Shown here: piece after piece, positions 1 to 9,504 of the stretch
Layout: each line of letters starts with the position of its first letter
Numbering within the stretch: position 1 is the first letter of the stretch
NCBI RefSeq assembly: GCF_006517275.1
Contig: NZ_CP041191.1
Location: forward strand, 862,501 to 926,500
Direction of reading: 5' to 3'
Length of the DNA: 64,000 bases
From: Labrenzia sp. PHM005
GTDB taxonomy: Bacteria > Pseudomonadota > Alphaproteobacteria > Rhizobiales > Stappiaceae
Notes under the pieces: model-generated
Told to the model about the DNA's origin: nothing
Database searches by the model: none
What the model saw: the letters and a program-made list of their open reading frames with translations, nothing else
Position numbers and translations under genes: made by a program

Positions 1-180
1 GACCAGTTTTCCGGAATTTAGAGCGCAGCGCCCTCTCGCCAGCGACGTTGCCGCCGTCGATGGAGCGGGTTATACGCAGACCAATCGGAACGGTCAACAG
101 CGGAATTCGAAAAAAATCAATTTTTGCGAAAAAAAATTCATAGATGGCATTATTCTCAATTATTACAGATAGTTATGCTT
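1..180. other. Left edge, no supported gene
   Basis: No convincing coding sequence was found. Short open stretches exist in several frames but none has a start codon with a ribosome-binding site. The stretch contains runs of A on the plus strand near 110-140, just beyond the 3' end of the minus-strand thiolase gene. On the minus strand this reads as T-runs, so transcription from the biotin operon might end here, but I see no clear stem. Confidence 0.4.
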
Positions 181-1350
181 TCACCGATCACGCGACGGGT
201 GACCTTCAACGAGAATTCCTGCAGATAGACCGCCAGCTGCCGCAATCAGCGCCATGCCCTGAAATTCATCAGCCAAGCCCTGCCTCTCTGCAAGCCGCAT
301 GGATTGAAACATCTGGACCATTAGGATGGCGCCGGACGCCCCTATTGGATGCCCACGGGCCAGACCGCCCCCCAGCGGGTTTAGAATCCGTGGGTCGACC
401 GCCAATGTTTGAGCGGTGATCATTGCCTGGACAGCATAAGCTTCATGGATCTCGATTGCCGACAATTGTTCGATGCTCTTGCCCGTTTGAGCCAGAAGGT
501 CTCGCGCGAGGCCGATCGGAACCAGTGCCGGATCGGCGGGATCGCCGCCGCGGCTTCCAGCTGCCATAATTTGAAGACCGGGCATCTGGAGGTCTCTGGC
601 GAGGTCGTCACTGACCAACAGTACAGCCGCCGCAGCATCTGCTTCACAGGCGATTGTTCCGGCAGTCAGACCAATTGATTGATTTCCTGCGAGGACGGGG
701 GCGCGCAGCGCTGTTCGGCTCGTAAGGCCGCGTGTAAAACTGTCAGTCTTTAGACCGCTGCCCGGACAATCCACCAGTCTCGCGCCAATGCTAGCGGCCG
801 CAGCACGCGCTTTATCATGAGAACCAACGGCAAACTCCGCCTGAGTAGTCCGGCAAAGTTTATATTGGCCCGCAAGCGCGGCTGCGGCTTCTGTCAGGTC
901 CGGATCGGAAAACGGAGGCGGCGCAAAAGGCGGGCGGCTATAGGCGACCGGCTCAGACACTGGCGCAAGGGGCCGATGCAGTCGCAGGGGTGCCCGGCTA
1001 AAACTCTCCGTACCTCCGGCTAAAACACAATCGGCAGCGCCCGATTCGATCAACCGGGCCGCCATGATGATCGCGTCCAGGCCGGAGCAGCATTGAGTAT
1101 CGAGAGTTAAAGCGGGACCGGTTTCAGGTAATCCGGCACGAAGCGCGGCCATACGCGCCGGGTTGCCCCCAGCATACAGCGCATTTCCCAGAAGAACGTG
1201 GTCTACTGATGTGTGATCAAGGCCTGCGTCTTCAACAAGTTTGTCGAGGACTGGTGCTGCCAATTCATCGGCCTGAAGGTGACTGAGGCTGCCCCCCCTT
1301 GGGGCGACCGGAGTTCTACGTGCTGCAATGACAACGGCGCGGCGCGTCAT
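181..1350 (-). CDS. Thiolase-family protein with atypical active site
   Basis: Thiolase-superfamily protein of 389 residues, the usual length of an acetyl-CoA acetyltransferase. Seen: the nucleophile Cys87 in TQCCSG, and the His of ARGHPIGASG at 334. The usual NEAF motif reads HEAYA (His302), and the C-terminal CxG cysteine that acts as general base in ordinary thiolases is Ala370 (ALIAAAGG), in an otherwise gap-free alignment. The start overlaps the stop of the acyl-CoA ligase gene by 4 bases (ATGA), so the two are translationally coupled. It is the last gene of the bioM-bioN-bioY-ligase-thiolase operon. Family knowledge says thiolases make or cleave beta-ketoacyl-CoA; the missing Cys makes a normal thiolytic cycle doubtful. 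A Claisen condensation or a step in biotin or pimelate side-chain metabolism is inference from the operon only. Confidence 0.85.
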   Translation of the reverse strand: MTRRAVVIAARRTPVAPRGGSLSHLQADELAAPVLDKLVEDAGLDHTSVDHVLLGNALYAGGNPARMAALRAGLPETGPALTLDTQCCSGLDAIIMAARLIESGAADCVLAGGTESFSRAPLRLHRPLAPVSEPVAYSRPPFAPPPFSDPDLTEAAAALAGQYKLCRTTQAEFAVGSHDKARAAAASIGARLVDCPGSGLKTDSFTRGLTSRTALRAPVLAGNQSIGLTAGTIACEADAAAAVLLVSDDLARDLQMPGLQIMAAGSRGGDPADPALVPIGLARDLLAQTGKSIEQLSAIEIHEAYAVQAMITAQTLAVDPRILNPLGGGLARGHPIGASGAILMVQMFQSMRLAERQGLADEFQGMALIAAAGGLSAGILVEGHPSRDR

Positions 1351-2828
1351 AAGGCCTGGCTTTCCATCTGCCGGACCTCTGACTGTCCGCCGTCTAGACT
1401 GTCCTTTATCGCGGGAATGTCGGGTTTGCCGCCCGCGGTCAGAGGCAGTTTATCTCTGATGTGAAACCGCTTCGGACATTTGGCACGCCCAACACGTGCC
1501 CTGCAATGATCCGCCAGCGCGCGTTCAGGGTCTTCAAGAGTTGTTTTGAGTTCAACAACAGCTTCGAGCCTTTGACCACGCAATGAATCATCAAGACCCA
1601 AGACAACTGCCCCAGAAATATCCGGATGCTGGAGAAGGGCCGCTTCAATCTCTTCCGGATAGACATTCAGCCCAGAGGTAATGACCATCCGGTTCCCACG
1701 TCCGGATAAATACAAAAAACCATCCTCATCCAGAAAACCGTGATCTCCAAAGGTCAGCCAGCCGTCTTGCCACTTTGTTTCCGGCGCAGTGCCGCAAATA
1801 TAGTCCCTGAAAAGAAGAGGGCTTTTCACCCAAACCGGTCCGGATACCCCGGCCGCTGCTGGATCAGCCGGATCACCAATGGCCGCTTCAACACCATCCG
1901 CCGGGCGTCCGACAGATCCAAGTGGCGTGTTTTCGCCGCTACGGGCAAAACTGATGAAACTTGTTTCAGACGCGCCGTAGAACTCTACCAACCTGGCATA
2001 CGGGAACACTTTTCTAAGCGTGGCGCGGGCCTCTCCGGACCATTTGGCGCCGCTGCAAAAGACCAGGGGAACGCACTCCAGCGGCCCCGTCCTGCGCGCG
2101 GCTTCAACAATTAGCTGCAGTTGGGTCGGTGTTGCATAGAGCGCCGCGCCGCCGCCATCTGCCTGCAATTCGGCAAGAACCGTTCGCGGATCAAACCGCG
2201 GCATTAGCGTTACCGAGATCCCTCGATGAAGCCCATGCGCCGCGCCATAAAGATGGAGGGAATGGCTCACACCACCAGCAAGGACAATCCGGCGCGGGTG
2301 TATTTGGTCAAAATCAACATCACTCAGCCGGAAACTTTCCAGCCACGAGCGGTGCGACCTCACATACCCTTTTGGAAGGCCCGTCGAACCGGATGTGAAG
2401 CCGGCATAAAAATCGGAGCCTTCTGTTGGCGGAGTTTTTGGTTTAGGTGCCTTGGTCGGATCATTCGTGTCGGCCGCTTTTTGATTTTTTTGCCAGAGCG
2501 CCTGATATTCAGCGTCATCAATACAGAGGGTCGGCTGTGTTGCTGCGATCAACTCCTGAATTCGCGGCTTTGGCCAAGAAACCTCCATAATCATGGCAAT
2601 CCGGCCAGCCCGCGCACAGGCAAAAAAACAAACGAGAGTTGCGGCGGGATCTGAAAGAAGAAGTGCCACGCGCGCGCCAGGCACAGTCTGCGCCAGGACA
2701 GCGGCCTCAAGCTTTTGGACCGCGTCAAAAAATCCGTTCCACGTCAAATTGGTGGACGCGCATTTCAGCGCGGCACTGTTCGGATGGTGCCACGCTGAAG
2801 TTTCCAGGTGTTCGCCGATATAGGCCAT
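1347..2828 (-). CDS. AMP-forming acyl-CoA ligase in biotin transport operon
   Basis: ANL-superfamily acyl-CoA synthetase, 493 residues from the start at 2828 (MAYIGEHLE). Visible motifs: the phosphate-binding loop TSGSTGLPKG, the A5 motif FYGASETS, the hinge region with TFGDHGFLDEDG and SGRGNRMVITSG, and a late LTAGGKPD carrying the catalytic Lys. It therefore should activate a carboxylic acid with ATP and join it to CoA; the substrate cannot be read from sequence. An upstream in-frame start exists at 2909 but would overlap bioY, so the shorter form is preferred; the Shine-Dalgarno is weak for either. It sits 28 bases after bioY and overlaps the thiolase gene by 4 bases. Biotin, pimelate or another dicarboxylate is a reasonable guess from context. 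Confidence 0.88.
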   Translation of the reverse strand: MAYIGEHLETSAWHHPNSAALKCASTNLTWNGFFDAVQKLEAAVLAQTVPGARVALLLSDPAATLVCFFACARAGRIAMIMEVSWPKPRIQELIAATQPTLCIDDAEYQALWQKNQKAADTNDPTKAPKPKTPPTEGSDFYAGFTSGSTGLPKGYVRSHRSWLESFRLSDVDFDQIHPRRIVLAGGVSHSLHLYGAAHGLHRGISVTLMPRFDPRTVLAELQADGGGAALYATPTQLQLIVEAARRTGPLECVPLVFCSGAKWSGEARATLRKVFPYARLVEFYGASETSFISFARSGENTPLGSVGRPADGVEAAIGDPADPAAAGVSGPVWVKSPLLFRDYICGTAPETKWQDGWLTFGDHGFLDEDGFLYLSGRGNRMVITSGLNVYPEEIEAALLQHPDISGAVVLGLDDSLRGQRLEAVVELKTTLEDPERALADHCRARVGRAKCPKRFHIRDKLPLTAGGKPDIPAIKDSLDGGQSEVRQMESQAL

Positions 2829-2856
2829 CCGGCGCTGGATCCCAAAGATCCCAGTG

Positions 2857-3411
2857 TTAAGACCGTGACAGGACTGCGCCTGGCAAACCACGTGCAATTG
2901 TCTGAGCAACGACGGCAGTAATCGCCACCTTGATCAAGTCGCCAGGAATGTAGACGGCGCTGCCCAAGGCCGCTTTAGCCAAAGACAAACCGGTCATGAT
3001 CGAAATACCTGGAATGCCGAAGGCGTAGACAACCAGAATCCCGCCAACGGCCGCAGCGACTGCGGAGGACACCAGCATGCTGGAATTGGGTGTTGCGCGC
3101 ATGATCAGTCCGGCAACAAACGCCCCAACCGGCCAGCCGATCAGGAAGCCGACGGACGGGCCGGCAAAAACCCCAAGACCGCCACGGCCACCAGCCAGGA
3201 ATGGCGCGCCCAGCGCAACGAGGAACAGAAACAGAAGGACCGCAAGGCCGCCGCGGACCGGACCAAGCATCACGCCGGCGAGCATGACGCCGAGCGTTTG
3301 CGCAGTGATCGGAACACCACCAAGAAACGGAATTGCGACCGGCGGCAACAAACCAAGCGCCGCGATCAAAGCTGCATAAAAAGCAATGTGAACCAGAGAA
3401 CGATCTGCCAT
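2857..3411 (-). CDS. bioY: BioY, biotin ECF transporter S component
   Basis: Integral membrane protein of 184 residues with about six hydrophobic segments, matching BioY in length and in features such as PITAQTLGVMLAG near the N-terminus, the GGRGGLGVFAGPSVGFL loop and YIPGDLIK near the C-terminus. BioY binds biotin in the membrane and is energised by the BioM ATPase and BioN coupling protein, both encoded just upstream. I chose the start at 3411 (MADRSLVHIAF) because it gives the normal family length and has an AGAAGG ribosome-binding site; a longer frame to 3546 would add a polar leader foreign to the family. Confidence 0.93.
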   Translation of the reverse strand: MADRSLVHIAFYAALIAALGLLPPVAIPFLGGVPITAQTLGVMLAGVMLGPVRGGLAVLLFLFLVALGAPFLAGGRGGLGVFAGPSVGFLIGWPVGAFVAGLIMRATPNSSMLVSSAVAAAVGGILVVYAFGIPGISIMTGLSLAKAALGSAVYIPGDLIKVAITAVVAQTIARGLPGAVLSRS

Positions 3412-3549
3412 GGGAGTTTTTACCTTCTTTCTCGACTTCGTTGTTTCATTGTTCAAGAACCCAGCACCCACATTTGCCCGGCTCCATTCCCTTTTCAGCT
3501 GGCCCATTGTCTTTGAATGATTGCGGCCTGCTAAATTTCTCCACACCCG

Positions 3550-4161
3550 TCAGCGGGGCGCCATTCCTTCCGATCCGCCCCGGGCTGCCAAAGCTTCGGA
3601 CACATTGTCCGACATCTTAAGCGCCTGCAGCGCAAAAGGTGCAATCAACCGCCAAGATGTCTTTTGCCCGGTTCTCGCCTGGAAGGCTTCCCGCAACATC
3701 CCGAAAATCTCGATCAGGTGCGGCGCAAAGCGCAAAACCAGGGTCACCCCAAGTGCCGGCTTGCGGGCGGAAAACCCGAGCCACTCAAGCGGCCGGAAGA
3801 GCGGCATCACCGCAGCAAGCATATCATCCATACGCGTTGTCATCGAGACAAAGCTGGCCGCAAGCACCATAACGCAAAGCCGCAAAACAGCAGCGATGCC
3901 TTCCATAACCGTCCCAGACAACCAATGCAGCGCCAGAATAGCCGCCAGAAAGATCGAAAGCCCCTTGAGCAGCCGCAGCCGGTCGACACCGCCCCGCCCC
4001 AAGGACACATAGGCAGCGAGCACAGCTGCAAAACAGACCAGAAACACCCAGATGGTCTGGGTCTTGAACAACAAAAGACTGCCAATTGCCACTACAAGCA
4101 GCTTCAGCCCGGCAGGCAGGCGGTGCGCCCAACTTTGACCAGATAGGTAGACCGACATCAT
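3550..4161 (-). CDS. bioN: BioN, ECF transporter T component
   Basis: Energy-coupling factor transmembrane protein of the CbiQ/BioN family, 203 residues with four or five hydrophobic segments. Near the C-terminus it carries the conserved coupling element, here EALAARGG, which docks onto the ATPase. The gene starts inside the stop codon of bioM (ATGA overlap of 4 bases), and bioY follows after 138 bases. It should link ATP hydrolysis by BioM to biotin release by BioY in the inner membrane. A second Met directly after the first could also be the start. Confidence 0.9.
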   Translation of the reverse strand: MMSVYLSGQSWAHRLPAGLKLLVVAIGSLLLFKTQTIWVFLVCFAAVLAAYVSLGRGGVDRLRLLKGLSIFLAAILALHWLSGTVMEGIAAVLRLCVMVLAASFVSMTTRMDDMLAAVMPLFRPLEWLGFSARKPALGVTLVLRFAPHLIEIFGMLREAFQARTGQKTSWRLIAPFALQALKMSDNVSEALAARGGSEGMAPR

Positions 4162-4934
4162 ATTGCGGCCACCTCCATAAAGGTTCCGGACCGGCGTTCG
4201 ATATCAGCCTGGTAAGCAGCAATCACCTTTGCAGCCGGACCATCCATCCTGACGCGACCGTCTTCCAGCCACAGTATCCGGTCAAACCCTTGAAGCAGGC
4301 TTATGTTGTGACTGACCATAACAATGCGCTGCGGCAGTGACATGAGCTTGTCAAAAATCCGGCGCGACGCAAGGGCATCCAGGCTTGTCATTGGTTCGTC
4401 CAGGACCAGGACACCGGGATTCATCACCAGAACCGCCAGAATACAAATCAGCTGCTTTTGTCCACCGGACAACTCGGCAAAGGGCATGGCGGCAAGGCCG
4501 CTGCAGCCATGCTGATCGAGAAATTCCAATGCTTGCGTCTGGGCTTCCTGTTTGGTGGCACCGAGCTGGGTTAGGCCGAAAGCAATTTCTTCTTCGACAG
4601 TTGGAAAAATTGCCTGATGATCCGGGTTTTGAAAGACAAAGCCGACATGGCGCGGCAGTTCGCTGCGCACGTCTGTTGCTTCGGCGCCAAACAACGTCAC
4701 GCGGCCGCTGTCAGCCAAATGGAGCCCATTCAACAAACGCACAAAACTGCTTTTGCCAGACCCATTCAGACCAATCACCCCAATGCGGTGTTCATCAAGC
4801 GTCAGGCTGAGATCACGCAGGATCTCCCGGCCACCCAGCGTCAATCCGGCTTGATCGAACCGGGCATAGGGCGACGCGGTTGGATTGCAGGCTCCAGCAA
4901 TTTTATCTTGTTTTTTTGAGCGCCAAAGCACCAT
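4158..4934 (-). CDS. bioM: BioM, ECF transporter ATPase
   Basis: ABC-type ATPase, 258 residues, with Walker A GLNGSGKSS, Q-loop in FVFQNPDHQ, signature LSGGQKQ, Walker B ending VLVLDEP, and a switch His in MVSHN. The NPDHQ form of the Q-loop is typical of ECF (CbiO/BioM) ATPases. First gene of the biotin operon. The first ~25 residues (charged, before YARFDQAGLTLGG) are less conserved, so a slightly later start is possible. Two copies of a GATG-CAAA-CATC palindrome lie 78-115 bases upstream and may be the operator. I found no exact copy of the alphaproteobacterial BioR box here. Confidence 0.92.
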   Translation of the reverse strand: MVLWRSKKQDKIAGACNPTASPYARFDQAGLTLGGREILRDLSLTLDEHRIGVIGLNGSGKSSFVRLLNGLHLADSGRVTLFGAEATDVRSELPRHVGFVFQNPDHQAIFPTVEEEIAFGLTQLGATKQEAQTQALEFLDQHGCSGLAAMPFAELSGGQKQLICILAVLVMNPGVLVLDEPMTSLDALASRRIFDKLMSLPQRIVMVSHNISLLQGFDRILWLEDGRVRMDGPAAKVIAAYQADIERRSGTFMEVAAI

Positions 4935-5011
4935 CGGTTCCTGCCACGCACTAGCCGAGCGGCTGATATATTGCCGCTACGTTTGCGCCGCTTATCGTCT
5001 GGAACGCTATT

Positions 5012-5049
5012 GATGTCAAAACATCCACATCGATTCGGATGCAAACATC
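5012..5049. promoter_or_regulatory. Two GATG-CAAA-CATC palindromes upstream of bioM
   Basis: GATGTCAAAACATC (5012-5025) and GATGCAAACATC (5038-5049) are two inverted repeats with the same CAAA core, 26 bases apart from start to start (about 2.5 helical turns), in the 156-base gap between the MocR-type gene and bioM. The placement and repetition suggest an operator for the biotin operon. The cognate regulator is unknown. Confidence 0.45.
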
Positions 5050-5090
5050 GCCGCTTTGACTAAGCCCTCCCCCTATAACAAGGCAGGTCG

Positions 5091-6500
5091 TTACCCCACA
5101 GGACGAGTAAGGTCCGGCGGCTCAGAAAACTCAGCAATTGTCGCTTTTATCCGCTCAAGTGCCCAGCGGAACCGCTCGTCGCTCTCTTCTGATCCGAAAG
5201 TGATGCGGATGTAGGGTGCAGGTTTTTGTCCTTTGGTTTGGAAATACCGGGCGGACAGCACCGAGATATCCTGATGCGACAGCGCGGCTTGAAGCGCATC
5301 GGGATCAACATCCGGTGGCAGAGCCAACCAGCCAAAGACCTTGTGACTGCCGCTTTGTAGGAAATGCGGTTCTAGAATCTTGCGGGCCATTTCAAACCGG
5401 ACACTGTTAGCCCGCCGCTTTACACGCAAAGCCTTCGCCAGCTGACCTTCGCGGACCCAGCCCGAAATCAGCTCGGCCGTGATTGGCGATGCCATCCAGG
5501 TACTTTCACCGATTTTGTTTCGGATGGAAGCGCCGAAGGGTGCAGGAACGTGAACAAAACCGATCCGGCTGCCCGGAGAACAGACTTTTGAAATACTGGC
5601 AATGGAAGCGGTCCGCTCCGGCGCCAATGCGCCAAAAGCCGGCAAAGTTTCGGTGAGAAACGGAGTGTAGGGATCGTCTTCTATGATCTTCAGATCGTGC
5701 GCCCTTGCCACATCGACCAGGGCATTGCGCTCTTCGCAGGACATGGTGTGGGTTGTCGGGTTTTGCATATTGGGCATCAAAAAGACGCCCTTCACGAGGT
5801 GCAGGCTGGCTGCTTGCGCCAGGGCGTCCGGATCCATCGCCCCAAGACCTCCATCAGCCCGCTGCAAGGCAGGCACAGGAACAGCCTTCAAGCCGAGCGC
5901 TGCCAAGGAACTGAATATCGATGGATAGGTGAACTGATCGACCGCAACGGCATCGCCGGGCAGAAACAGCGCCTGACACGTAACCTGGATCCCGTGCTGA
6001 GCACCGCAAGTGACGGCGACCCGGTCCGGATCGGCATCCAGCCCATAGTCCTTAAACACCAAGACCCCGGTTTCCCGGTGCGCCATTAGCCCTTCCGACG
6101 GTACAAACCCATTGAGACGCTCAATCCCGTGCGTTTTCGCCATGCGAACCAACCCATCCGACAGGCTGGGATTGAGATGCGGATAGGCGAAATTGCGCGC
6201 TAAGTCACAACTGTCCGGTTCGCCTTCTTTCGGGATCAATGGCGAAATCTTCTGACTTTCCGGCGCCACATAAGTGCCGCGTCCTGTTTCACCTTTGACC
6301 AGCCGGCGGCGCTCCGCTTCGGCGTATGCTCGAGTCACCGTGCCCAGCGTTATGCCAAGTTGATAGGCAAGCTCGCGTTGCGGCGGCAGGCGGTCTCCTC
6401 GGGCCAAACTGCCCGCCAGAATATCCGCCTCCAGCGCATCGGCAATTGCCAGGTAAATCGGCCCAGAAGCCGTATCAATCGCAGGAACCCACATTGTCAT
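5091..6500 (-). CDS. MocR-type regulator (GntR HTH plus aminotransferase fold)
   Basis: A 469-residue fusion typical of the MocR/PdxR group: an N-terminal GntR winged helix (residues about 10-75, containing GDRLPPQRELAYQLGI) joined to a fold-type I aminotransferase-like domain. The PLP lysine is expected in SISKVCSPGSRIG, and the cofactor pocket is seen in MPNMQNPTTHTM and IIEDDPYTPF. Such proteins use PLP as an effector or sensor and often control the divergent neighbour. Here that is the LysE exporter, 94 bases away, with a direct repeat in between. It lies upstream of the biotin operon on the same strand, so a role there cannot be excluded. Confidence 0.9.
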   Translation of the reverse strand: MTMWVPAIDTASGPIYLAIADALEADILAGSLARGDRLPPQRELAYQLGITLGTVTRAYAEAERRRLVKGETGRGTYVAPESQKISPLIPKEGEPDSCDLARNFAYPHLNPSLSDGLVRMAKTHGIERLNGFVPSEGLMAHRETGVLVFKDYGLDADPDRVAVTCGAQHGIQVTCQALFLPGDAVAVDQFTYPSIFSSLAALGLKAVPVPALQRADGGLGAMDPDALAQAASLHLVKGVFLMPNMQNPTTHTMSCEERNALVDVARAHDLKIIEDDPYTPFLTETLPAFGALAPERTASIASISKVCSPGSRIGFVHVPAPFGASIRNKIGESTWMASPITAELISGWVREGQLAKALRVKRRANSVRFEMARKILEPHFLQSGSHKVFGWLALPPDVDPDALQAALSHQDISVLSARYFQTKGQKPAPYIRITFGSEESDERFRWALERIKATIAEFSEPPDLTRPVG

Positions 6501-6560
6501 GAGAACAATGTTATCATTGACCCATACATTTTTTCAAGTCAGTGGTTGTTTTGAGTACTT

Positions 6561-6578
6561 TGTATCGATTGTATCGAA
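6561..6578. promoter_or_regulatory. TGTATCGA direct repeat between mocR-type gene and lysE-type gene
   Basis: TGTATCGAT is followed immediately by TGTATCGAA, a tandem repeat with 9-base period, 16 bases before the exporter start. MocR-family regulators are known to favour direct repeats in the shared intergenic region, so this is a candidate operator. Confidence 0.4.
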
Positions 6579-6594
6579 ATTGAATGAGTCCCTG

Positions 6595-7191
6595 ATGGAT
6601 ATCGCCACCTTAACGGCCTTCGCCCTGTTTATCATCGTTATGACCGGCACGCCCGGCCCCGGAAACCTGACCTTCCTGGCCATTGGTGCCGCGGCTGGCT
6701 ACCGTTCTGCATTCCCGGTTATTGTCGCATCACAAATCGGTTCGCTACCGCTAAAACTGAGTGTTGCGTATGGCCTTGGTCATGTGATGGCCAGTGGCGG
6801 GCCGATTGTATTGGCCTTCAAAGTCCTCAGCATGGCCTATATGACCTACCTTGCCTGGCGGATTGTGTCGTTGAGCGTAAAACCCAAAGGAGAAGTCTCT
6901 TTGCCCAGTTTCTGGGAGGGCCTTTTGATCCACCCGCTCAGTCCGAAGACTTGGGCCATGAACATGGTTGCCTTCACAACCTTTCTTGCTGGCAATGGTC
7001 TCAGCGTTCATGAAAATGCGATCATTCTGACCACCGGATTTGTACTCGGCGGGCTCGTGTTTCACTCTCTTTGGGCCCTGGCTGGGGTATCCATTCTGGC
7101 GATCGTCGGCGAAGGCCGTTTGATGCGGGCGATCACTGTGTTGATGGCCTTTACAATGCTCGCGGCGACCATTTGGGCGTTGATGCTGTAG
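6595..7191 (+). CDS. LysE/RhtB-family amino acid exporter
   Basis: Membrane protein of 198 residues with about six hydrophobic segments. The N-terminal MTGTPGPGNLTFLAIGAAAG matches the family hallmark GPGP(D/N) region. Members export amino acids or related small metabolites. The start at 6595 (MDIATLTAF) is chosen because an upstream in-frame ATG at 6499 would add a leader that overlaps the divergent regulator's start region. Divergent from the MocR-type gene, which probably controls it; the substrate is unknown. Confidence 0.88.
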   Translation: MDIATLTAFALFIIVMTGTPGPGNLTFLAIGAAAGYRSAFPVIVASQIGSLPLKLSVAYGLGHVMASGGPIVLAFKVLSMAYMTYLAWRIVSLSVKPKGEVSLPSFWEGLLIHPLSPKTWAMNMVAFTTFLAGNGLSVHENAIILTTGFVLGGLVFHSLWALAGVSILAIVGEGRLMRAITVLMAFTMLAATIWALML

Positions 7192-7438
7192 TGTTCAGAT
7201 CTTTGACTTGTCGGAGTCAACGGGAGCATAATCCAGTGTTACTCCGTCTGTCAGCTGAGGACTTAACTGCCTCGCGGACAGCTGGAGCATCTGAAGCCGA
7301 TTGTTCGATATAGCAGAGACAATTCCAGTCGATTTTCAACGCTTCAAACGCCAAGTCCCGAAAAACTGCCAATTTATTGCGATCTGCACACATGCTCAAA
7401 TACAGCTCTTCTGTCAGGTGTAGCTGAGGAACATTCAG

Positions 7439-8185
7439 TTGGGTCGCAAGCCTTGGTTCCAAACTCTTATTGCCGTTCCCGCAGTTTTTTTAACAGCGAT
7501 AATGGCCACTGCAGACACTCGCACTCCAACGATCATTTTGGCGACAAACTACCCGCCGTTCGATATTGAGGAACCGGCAGATGGCCTGCACGGCTTTGAT
7601 CATGAAGTCACAATGGAAGTCTTCAAACGCCAGAACGTAGATGCCAAAATCGTCTTTGTTCCGTGGTCACGCGCAGTCCATGAAACGGAAATCGGAAATC
7701 ATCCCGGTTTGCTCACCTGCGCCCGCACCGAAGACCGGGCAAAACACTATCTTTTTAGCGACCCTATAAGCCAGGAAGCTTATGGAATATATTATCAAAA
7801 CGGTTTTCCAGTAGATGAGATCATCGATATACCTGATCTTGCTGGCTACAGCGTTGCCTCTGTTTTGGAGTACGCACCGAATGCCACTCTGACAGACAAT
7901 GGCGCAGTTCTTGTCGACATTCCCTCCGATGAAACAGGCTTCAAAATGCTGGAGCTCAGCCGTGTCGATTTTGTTTACACCGGCAAGGCAGCCGGGGACT
8001 ACCTAATCAAGCAGCTCGGACTAAGAAATAAGTTTGCATTCAAGCCTTTTGTTGTCTGGGATTATCATCTTTGTTTTTCCCGCAAACACCCGCACTCAAC
8101 CGAATTGAGGCAACGGTTTAATACCGGGCTGGCTGCAATCAAGGCCGATCAGACCTACACACGCATCCACGCCAAGTATCGCTAA
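7439..8185 (+). CDS. Exported solute-binding protein, family 3 type
   Basis: A 248-residue protein with an N-terminal hydrophobic signal (cleavage probably after VFLTAIMATADT) and the family 3 solute-binding fold: TIILATNYPPFD at the start of lobe 1, a GFDHEVTMEVFKRQ helix and FVPWSRAV. The start is TTG at 7439, supported by TGAGGA 10 bases before it. No permease or ATPase gene is adjacent, so it may be an orphan sensor or serve a transporter elsewhere. It resembles in general plan the tandem pair at 53.9-55.7 kb (both have a PW(S/K)R motif after the first domain) but is clearly more distant. Ligand unknown. Confidence 0.8.
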   Translation: MGRKPWFQTLIAVPAVFLTAIMATADTRTPTIILATNYPPFDIEEPADGLHGFDHEVTMEVFKRQNVDAKIVFVPWSRAVHETEIGNHPGLLTCARTEDRAKHYLFSDPISQEAYGIYYQNGFPVDEIIDIPDLAGYSVASVLEYAPNATLTDNGAVLVDIPSDETGFKMLELSRVDFVYTGKAAGDYLIKQLGLRNKFAFKPFVVWDYHLCFSRKHPHSTELRQRFNTGLAAIKADQTYTRIHAKYR

Positions 8186-8240
8186 TCCAAGCCGCCTGAC
8201 ACCACCCCTGCGGGCATGTGCACCATCGGTTTTTGAGCCT

Positions 8241-8471
8241 TTACCGCCTCAGCCGGTCTATTTCCTGGTGCCATTTGTCTTCGAAACTGAGGCGCGCGCG
8301 GACGTCTGGTTCAAAGCCGATATCGCGGCGCAGGTCCGGCGGCAGGTCACAAATCTGGACCAGCTTCCGCCGCCCGGCCCAACTCGGTCCGAGGAGACTT
8401 TGAATAAGTCCGGTTAATACATTTTTCCTGTTTCCCTGGTCTTTCACAGGGATTGAATCTGCTCTAGGCAT
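8241..8471 (-). CDS. Small DUF1127-like protein
   Basis: 76 residues, basic, with a C-terminal stretch ICDLPPDLRRDIGFEPD that fits the short DUF1127-type motif (L..LP...LRDIG). The N-terminal half is less conserved. It is divergent from the LysR gene, with 103 bases between starts. DUF1127 proteins are small RNA- or stress-linked proteins in alphaproteobacteria; no specific function is claimed. The Shine-Dalgarno is weak. Confidence 0.6.
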   Translation of the reverse strand: MPRADSIPVKDQGNRKNVLTGLIQSLLGPSWAGRRKLVQICDLPPDLRRDIGFEPDVRARLSFEDKWHQEIDRLRR

Positions 8472-8501
8472 AGCTCAACTCGTTTTTTGAATTGCATTTG
8501 T

Positions 8502-8515
8502 ACAATCAATATTGT
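8502..8515. promoter_or_regulatory. ACAAT-CAAT-ATTGT palindrome in LysR divergent region
   Basis: A 5-base perfect inverted repeat (ACAATCAATATTGT) sits between the divergent DUF1127-like and LysR-type genes, about 60 bases before the LysR start. Position and symmetry suit a LysR or other regulator site. The motif is short and AT-rich, so confidence is low. Confidence 0.3.
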
Positions 8516-8574
8516 TCCTCCATCATTGATTGACCAATGAAAAGACGATAGGCATGCATAAGGAGTATTTATGT

Positions 8575-9504
8575 ATGGCACAGTCCCTTCCCCCTCTGCC
8601 CGCAATCCGGGCCTTTGAAGCCGTCAGCCGGCACCTGAGCTTCACCAAGGCAGGTGAGGAACTGGGCATGACCCAGGCAGCGGTCAGCTACCAGATCAAG
8701 CTTCTGGAAGAAAAACTCGGTTTTGCCGTGTTTGAACGGAAACCCCGCAAGATAGAACTGACGGCCAAAGGAGCGCAGCTTGCAGAAGGGGTTGTAGACG
8801 GTTTTGAAAGATTACGGACTGCGTTCGAGGATGTGCGCGGTACCCATGCAAACGAGCTGGTGATCAACAGCAACACGACCTTTGCAATGAACTGGCTGGG
8901 GTCACGTCTGTTTGAGTTCCAGATGCAAAACCCGGATCTGGCGGTCAGGATCGTTCCCTACGGGCCGTGGGAAAAACCAACCTTTGACTGTGCCGATGTG
9001 ACAATATCGGCCTGTTTTCCGCCCCCGGAAGGTTCTGTCACCCTGCCGCTGGTCAAAGCTGAATTTACACCGCTGGTCGCGCCGGAACTTGCGGCCAGCA
9101 TCGGCGGTATTCACACGCTAGAAGATCTTCTCAAAATACCGATCATCGATCCCGGCGATCCCTGGTGGCTCATGTGGTTCGCTGCTGCTGGAATGCCCGA
9201 TCCCGATCTGAGCCGCTGGCCGGAATCCCGTATGGGATCTCAGGCGCTGGAGGCCAACCGGGCGCTGGCCGGGCAGGGGGCTGCGATCCTTACCCCCTAT
9301 TTTTGCCGCGATGCCCTGCAGTCCGGACGGCTGATTCAGCCGTTTGAGCTGGTCTGCGAACACCCGAATGAATCTTGGTTGCTCAGTTATCCGCCGCAAA
9401 ACAAAAACAGCCGGAAAATCCGGCTGTTCTGCGATTGGGTGGTCGCGGAGCTGAAAAAGGACGGACTTGCGCTTCCGGCAGGATCAGACGGACTGGCGGC
9501 GTAG
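8575..9504 (+). CDS. LysR-family regulator, GcvA-like
   Basis: 309 residues. The N-terminal winged helix has the GcvA-type opening LPPLPAIRAFEAVSRHLSF and TKAGEELGMTQAAVSYQIK, followed by the LysR substrate-binding domain (TLPLVKAEFTPLVAP onward). I chose ATG at 8575 because AAGGAG lies 9 bases before it; the longer frame from 8530 has no such site. Convergent with the BKACE/aminotransferase pair, and divergent from the DUF1127-like gene. It may control either neighbour. Confidence 0.9.
   Translation: MAQSLPPLPAIRAFEAVSRHLSFTKAGEELGMTQAAVSYQIKLLEEKLGFAVFERKPRKIELTAKGAQLAEGVVDGFERLRTAFEDVRGTHANELVINSNTTFAMNWLGSRLFEFQMQNPDLAVRIVPYGPWEKPTFDCADVTISACFPPPEGSVTLPLVKAEFTPLVAPELAASIGGIHTLEDLLKIPIIDPGDPWWLMWFAAAGMPDPDLSRWPESRMGSQALEANRALAGQGAAILTPYFCRDALQSGRLIQPFELVCEHPNESWLLSYPPQNKNSRKIRLFCDWVVAELKKDGLALPAGSDGLAA

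Follow-up and report, generated by a model that had tools for sequence, protein, structure and literature searches.

Why should an operon for biotin uptake end in genes for a ligase and a thiolase? In a 64,000-nucleotide stretch of the Labrenzia sp. PHM005 genome (contig NZ_CP041191.1, positions 862,501 to 926,500; hereafter the window), genes for the biotin transporter BioMNY are followed by genes for an adenosine monophosphate (AMP)-forming acyl-coenzyme A (CoA) ligase and a thiolase-like protein. Open reading frames and Pfam matches give the minus-strand order bioM-bioN-bioY-ligase-thiolase (Table 1), and two ATGA overlaps of four bases, read in the sequence, join bioM to bioN (4158-4161) and the ligase gene to the thiolase gene (1347-1350), which confirms the compact five-gene unit of the original prediction, made from this DNA alone. 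A biotin-specific role for the pair, also part of that prediction, is supported: bioY accompanies the two genes not only in Alphaproteobacteria but also in Salinibius, a gammaproteobacterium, and in Bacillus-type genomes, where a BirA-like box is present as well. The reading we favour, if tentatively, is that the pair belongs to a biotin-supply module as its alphaproteobacterial branch. This module would activate an acid imported by BioMNY and, in the branch of the Gram-positive protein YhfS, extend it by two carbons; salvage of an imported vitamer would be its most plausible purpose.

The thiolase active site

SCP2-thiolases carry the motif HDCF. The window protein has HEAY, GHP and AAA where SCP2-thiolases and the thiolase-like protein TLP1 have HDCF or YSCF, GGL and NGG, and thus matches neither group. 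The TLP1 motifs YSCF, GGL and NGG are taken from PMC3406046, which also gives the fingerprints of thiolases as CXS, VMG, NEAF, GHP and CXG and assigns the enolate oxyanion hole to Asn316 and His348 and the role of base to Cys378. Alignment with PDB thiolases, Escherichia coli AtoB and FadA and the six other thiolases of the genome bears out the altered active site that had been predicted: Cys87 and His334 are retained, and His302 and Ala370 replace the NEAF Asn and the CxG Cys. The fingerprints read HEAY for NEAF, AAA for CXG and DPA for VMG, so that VMG is lost in addition. The six other thiolases all exceed the TIGR01930 cut-off, and NEAF and the Cys of CxG are present in 6/6.

An AlphaFold2 model of the thiolase alone (predicted local distance difference test 93.0, predicted template-modelling score 0.93) had the Z. 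ramigera biosynthetic thiolase as its top Foldseek match (TM 0.87), with the engineered N316H, N316A and H348 mutants also listed. The protein shares fold and domains, nucleophile Cys and GHP His with classical thiolases such as that of Z. ramigera and AtoB but differs from them in lacking the NEAF Asn, the CxG Cys and VMG. Among the best 120 of 2628 homologues, whose closest named members are from Roseibium/Labrenzia, Cys87, D84 and Q86 are invariant (120/120), the NEAF Asn site holds Met in 104, His in 14, Gln in one and Ile in one (a fragment), and the position of the CxG Cys holds Ala in 115, Pro in two, a gap in two and Ser in one.

These counts bear on the Cys-His-His set, typical of FabF, that had been proposed for the enzyme. 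By sequence, Cys, His and His are indeed present in the window protein, which like the ketoacyl synthases (KAS) I/II, FabB and FabF, has no CxG Cys. However, the His at the NEAF position is Met in 104/120 relatives and His in only 14/120, which makes the FabF-like triad no trait of the family, and by sequence the window protein is a member of the thiolase family. In the window's own small branch the triad could still be the working set.

Occurrence beside bioY

A scan of GTDB genomes returned 52 loci, of which 51 were counted, an ordinary thiolase from Neobacillus (L053) being left out. The ligase gene adjoins the thiolase gene in 50/51, and the remaining stretch (L052) begins inside the thiolase. 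Whether the pair accompanies bioY elsewhere, the check that had been proposed, is answered by the 46/51 loci with bioY in the retrieved stretch, 25 on the same strand and 21 on the opposite strand, 43 of them within 3 kb. In the opposite-strand loci bioY lies past the 3' end of the thiolase gene, so that the pair and bioMNY are convergent. The loci without bioY are L030, L036, L042, L044 and L045, three of them (L030, L036 and L044) close to the end of a contig. One locus with the pair and bioY (L040) is from Salinibius.

In a sample drawn evenly across the class, the thiolase was found in 8/289 genomes (E up to 1e-85), a lower bound since the best six candidates per genome were scored. Besides the window's own, seven loci of this sample were examined, with the ligase in 7/7 and bioMNY in 6/7. 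The linkage of ligase, thiolase and bioY exceeds chance. Two alphaproteobacterial loci with bioMNY (L083, L084) have a thiolase of the type with Asn in NEAF and Gly at the CxG Cys. The sole fetched class-sample locus with the pair and no bioY within 15 kb (L079) has a second ligase-like gene about 2.4 kb on.

No dyad or sequence word recurred convincingly in front of bioM or of the ligase gene; a TCGGA dyad is present in 6/22 upstream regions of L002-L023. A palindrome fitting the BioR consensus is absent from the window and from L001-L052, and the single match is in L053, outside the family. Alphaproteobacterial BirA is said to be without a DNA-binding domain (PMC5343134).

A counterpart in Gram-positive bacteria

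Among 120 genomes of the Neobacillus order (Bacillaceae), here called Bacillus-type, 31 gave a strong match to PRK06690, and 21 of these loci were fetched. Genes for bioY, ligase and thiolase stand on one strand in 20/21. At the exception (Neobacillus L069:6873-9433) the thiolase gene is intact, the ligase is split over several frames and bioY is missing nearby, an apparent case of decay. In each of the 21 thiolases NEAF and GHP are intact and the CxG Cys is replaced by Gly. A dyad, TGTNAAC-N15-GTTNACA, precedes bioY in 16/20 Bacillus-type loci and occurs 0 times elsewhere in 283,521 bp and in 0/20 shuffled sets, counts obtained with a pattern that was sharpened after a looser scan had been seen. 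Its half-site is presumably that of BirA. The dyad is absent from the window and from every alphaproteobacterial locus.

Gene order and residues together identify the window's pair as the counterpart of yhfT-yhfS of Bacillus and Staphylococcus, published targets of BirA. In both, ligase and thiolase genes are adjacent with bioY beside them, the thiolases fall on the same side of a well-supported branch and share D-x-Q-C and the loss of the CxG Cys, and the ligases have FYxGFTSGSTG, SGAKW and EFYGASExSF in common, a comparison of 20 rows (11 from the window's branch and nine others), 27/46 loci having no single long motif-bearing frame. The window's branch differs in having Ala rather than Gly at the CxG Cys and Met or His rather than Asn in NEAF, in lacking a BirA-like box, in showing no reductase or dehydratase and in having its own energy-coupling factor (ECF) module, bioMN. 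The best single-family NCBIfam matches of the window proteins are PRK06690 for the thiolase (204.6 of 498 bits) and PRK07638 for the ligase (NF005797, 323.2 of 518), both under the equivalog cut-offs. The S. aureus yhfS-yhfT promoter is subject to biotin- and BirA-dependent repression (PMC6391492), and in Gram-positive bacteria biotin represses the counterparts rather than inducing them (PMC6391492, PMC7235819); pair and control are also reviewed in PMC11089781. No biotin role is assigned to yhfT-yhfS in the literature searched, where regulon papers of 2002 and 2007 may say more.

Phylogeny of the thiolases

We built a tree of 68 thiolases, comprising 52 biotin-operon rows (24 of the 52 family rows formed by the window and L002-L052, all seven class-sample loci and all 21 fetched Bacillus-type loci) and 16 ordinary thiolases (six from the Labrenzia genome, seven from Neobacillus, one from Salinibius, AtoB and FadA). 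The branch that separates the two sets has a support of 100/99, and the biotin-operon thiolases form a clade provided that the root falls within the ordinary set. Asp three residues before the nucleophile Cys is found in 52/52 biotin-operon rows and 0/16 ordinary rows, Gln one residue before it in 52/52 and 2/16. The CxG Cys is missing and the VMG Met replaced in 52/52, whereas the ordinary rows have the NEAF Asn in 16/16, the CxG Cys in 15/16 (the sixteenth ends early) and the VMG Met in 14/16. Loss of the base Cys throughout the clade indicates that these are not ordinary acetyl-CoA thiolases, and as the enolate-stabilizing Asn is also replaced in the window's branch, by Met or here by His, the chemistry has probably shifted again there. 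His is found in the window, L003, L006 and L009, rows that group as a single clade (100/97), and His302 is, judged from this tree, a late substitution in the window's branch. L040 from Salinibius sits on a long branch and its placement is unsure.

Downstream genes in Bacillus-type units

Genes of the MaoC type lie 3' of the thiolase gene in 9/20 Bacillus-type loci (L114, L121, L123, L124, L125, L128, L130, L131 and L133), and a gene for a short-chain dehydrogenase/reductase (SDR) in 7/20 (L126-L132); one or both are present in 13/20, both in three. Downstream genes were grouped by BLAST clusters, with Pfam run on part of the proteins, which matched two dehydratases and an SDR in L131, a fused pair in L133 and the SDRs of L126 and L128 and left the second frame of L121 unmatched. 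For six proteins compared with NCBIfam, the SDRs matched FabG models best or nearly best and the MaoC pair matched HadA/HadB, all below cut-off, so that the FAS1_DH/MaoC pair is HadA/HadB-like. By these matches the downstream partners appear to be of the biosynthetic, (3R)-hydroxyacyl type. Among the units L114-L133, some have an SDR without the MaoC pair and others the MaoC pair without an SDR.

Biotin synthesis genes in carriers

In the Labrenzia genome, in a search that covered bioB and bioA, no bioB match exceeds the cut-off (best 36 bits vs 225), and none of 11 aminotransferases exceeds that for bioA. The operon BioY is the single PF02632 match of the genome. Across 49 pair-bearing genomes (50 loci), bioB was found in seven and not in 42, so the pair cannot act before BioB in most alphaproteobacterial carriers. 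In the class sample bioB was present in 0/8 thiolase carriers vs 109/281 other genomes (p 0.027), a comparison in which, as in all our bioB comparisons, the genome sets overlap and are phylogenetically non-independent. The pair was also tried as a mark of biotin auxotrophs and was rejected as such, there being no association in one alphaproteobacterial family and the opposite one in Bacillus-type genomes.

Possible functions of the pair

In the favoured module, BioMNY would import a carboxylic acid and the ligase would form its CoA thioester, from which the thiolase-like enzyme would load the acyl group on Cys87 and then pass it on. In the YhfS branch, where Asn and His are kept, the acyl group would most likely undergo decarboxylative condensation with malonyl-CoA or malonyl-acyl carrier protein (malonyl-ACP), and FabG-like and/or HadAB-like partners would complete one reductive two-carbon extension; in the window's branch the protein would be an altered condensing enzyme or would simply transfer the acyl group. 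Decarboxylative condensation in ketoacyl synthases needs no base of the kind lost here, and loss of the equivalent of Cys378 should severely impair ordinary condensation or thiolysis with acetyl-CoA. Gene order, residues, the clade, the BirA-like boxes of Bacillus-type genomes and the lack of a bioB match are observed; substrate, malonyl dependence and direction are what we infer. BioY, the control by BirA and the genomes without bioB would best be matched by a biotin with a shortened side chain, for example bisnorbiotin, as a substrate that is converted back to biotin. Taken in full, a vitamin repair from bisnorbiotin to biotin by CoA activation, malonyl-dependent extension by the base-less thiolase and FabG/HadAB steps, under starvation control in Bacillus-type genomes and within the BioMNY operon of marine Alphaproteobacteria, is a doubtful proposition.

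Several observations weigh against the biotin-supply module. Neither an SDR nor a MaoC-type gene is present in 7/20 Bacillus-type units, alphaproteobacterial units showed neither a reductase nor a dehydratase, and the alphaproteobacterial loci have no BirA-like or BioR-like site. bioY is missing from the retrieved stretch in 5/51 loci of the GTDB scan, 1/7 of the class sample and 1/21 of the Bacillus-type set. The sharpening of the dyad pattern and the scoring of six candidates per genome count on the same side, as do the several metagenome bins among the 49 genomes, where the lack of bioB may reflect missing sequence. Within one alphaproteobacterial family bioB is as good as indifferent to the thiolase (3/30 with vs 19/129 without, p 0.77), and in the Neobacillus order carriers have it more often than non-carriers (27/31 vs 52/89, p 0.004), so auxotroph salvage is not the whole story. 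Loss of the Asn316 equivalent probably weakens enolate chemistry in the window's branch, which may have moved toward acyl transfer. Bisnorbiotin as the substrate is a deduction, and a literature search on it led nowhere. Finally, one paper ascribes to yhfT a part in surfactin production (PMC6323116), a hint of fatty acids.

That hint would agree with a biotin-sparing lipid module, in which low biotin would limit acetyl-CoA carboxylase and malonyl-CoA, the ligase would activate exogenous fatty acids, and thiolase, reductase and dehydratase would remodel or extend them, with bioY linked by shared regulation rather than by substrate. The FabG-like and HadAB-like partners are of the fatty-acid type, and we take the Staphylococcus operon vraA-vraB-vraC to be yhfT-yhfS. 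PMC11730646 describes that operon as one of fatty acid metabolism. However, a malonyl-independent route requires deprotonation of acetyl-CoA, for which the base Cys is missing in 52/52, and the linkage is to the transporter genes themselves in several gene orders, which suggests a shared substrate; we regard the lipid module as unlikely. A role in acyl transfer only, with the ligase trapping biotin or a vitamer as its CoA ester and the thiolase-like enzyme moving or hydrolysing the acyl group with no carbon-carbon chemistry, seems similarly improbable. It would suit the window's branch, which has neither base Cys nor Asn yet keeps Cys87 and the GHP His and in whose units no reductase or dehydratase was seen, but the sister branch keeps the Asn, and its units have reductase and/or dehydratase genes in 13/20 loci.

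The original prediction had also named two roles with less in their favour. In the synthesis of a pimeloyl precursor, a BioZ-like condensing enzyme would extend glutaryl-CoA to 3-oxopimeloyl-CoA; identical enzyme steps would serve, and 27/31 Bacillus-type carriers have bioB. We nevertheless reject it as a general role and consider it very unlikely, given the lack of a bioB match in this genome, in 42/49 pair-bearing genomes and in 8/8 class-sample carriers, and given that two of the 4/31 Bacillus-type carriers without bioB (L114, L121) have MaoC-like genes after the pair. BioZ, a KAS III-like enzyme acting on glutaryl-CoA and malonyl-ACP, would share with the proposed enzyme a two-carbon extension in biotin metabolism but is FabH-like and found in biotin-making genomes (PMC11089781), whereas here the protein has a thiolase fold and its genome gave no bioB match. 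As for imported biotin or its vitamers, salvage is the part of the earlier proposal that we retain in the biotin-supply module. Degradation, with biotin broken down by beta-oxidation to serve as a carbon source, is extremely unlikely: ligase and thiolase are by name a beta-oxidation pair, but repression of the Gram-positive counterparts by biotin (PMC6391492, PMC7235819) fits it badly, thiolysis requires the lost Cys, and the dehydratases resemble (3R)-hydroxyacyl enzymes of the biosynthetic type.

Features of the unit and its flanks

Comparison with relatives moved the ligase start to Met28 of the listed open reading frame (window position 2828 instead of 2909) and the BioY start to Met46 (3411 instead of 3546), and with these revisions the overlap of bioY and the ligase gene is gone. 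Among PDB entries the ligase matched MenE best (117.8 bits), which gives no hint of its substrate. No Rfam family matched in positions 1-9000 of the window.

Table 1 Positions of the biotin transporter unit and of the thiolase active-site codons in the window.
Feature	Position	Strand	Remarks
Thiolase-like protein, 389 aa	181..1350	-	Terminal gene; biotin-operon thiolase clade; Pfam Thiolase_N/C
AMP-forming acyl-CoA ligase, PRK07638-like, 493 aa from revised start	1347..2828	-	Pfam AMP-binding and AMP-binding_C
bioY, biotin S-component, revised start	2857..3411	-	PF02632, 121.4 bits
bioN, ECF T-component (CbiQ family)	3550..4161	-	PF02361, 57.3 bits
bioM, ECF ATPase	4158..4934	-	ABC_tran and ECF_ATPase models
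Leader of unit	4935..5090	-	No BirA-like box, BioR-like palindrome or Rfam family
Cys87 codon, nucleophile, CXS loop preceded by D84-x-Q86	1090..1092	-	Cys in 120/120 nearest proteins
His302 codon, replaces NEAF Asn	445..447	-	His in 14/120, Met in 104/120 nearest proteins
His334 codon, GHP	349..351	-	His in 119/120 nearest proteins
Ala370 codon, replaces CxG base Cys	241..243	-	Ala in 115/120, Cys in 0/120 nearest proteins

A gene for a MocR-type regulator (5091-7191; best NCBIfam match EhuR, 345.6 bits, cut-off 480) lies immediately 5' of bioM and has the same orientation; a divergent LysE exporter gene overlaps it by two bases. The MocR-type gene adjoins the unit in L002-L018 and L020 and has no match beside bioM in L033, L080, L083 and L084; the Stappia loci L019 and L021-L023 stop just upstream of bioM and are uninformative on it. 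At the other end, corresponding to window positions 1-180, the contigs of many Roseibium/Labrenzia relatives end no more than about 0.6 kb past the thiolase gene, as if at a repeated element, perhaps a ribosomal RNA operon.

Possible implications for biotin supply

The Gram-positive pair and its control by BirA were already known. New, as far as we have seen, are the branch in Alphaproteobacteria with its particular residues, the absence of the base Cys throughout the clade, the presence of elongation partners and the finding that the pair also occurs where bioB is lacking. The thiolases form a natural series on one fold, from Cys-Asn-His-Cys through Cys-Asn-His-Gly and Cys-Met-His-Ala to Cys-His-His-Ala, and the annotation gap for yhfT-yhfS in model Gram-positive biotin regulons becomes testable. 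Similar pairs in biotin-controlled operons of distant bacteria suggest a little-known route to usable biotin when it is scarce. If the pair does serve salvage, microbial exchange of biotin may include vitamers that predictions of auxotrophy ignore.

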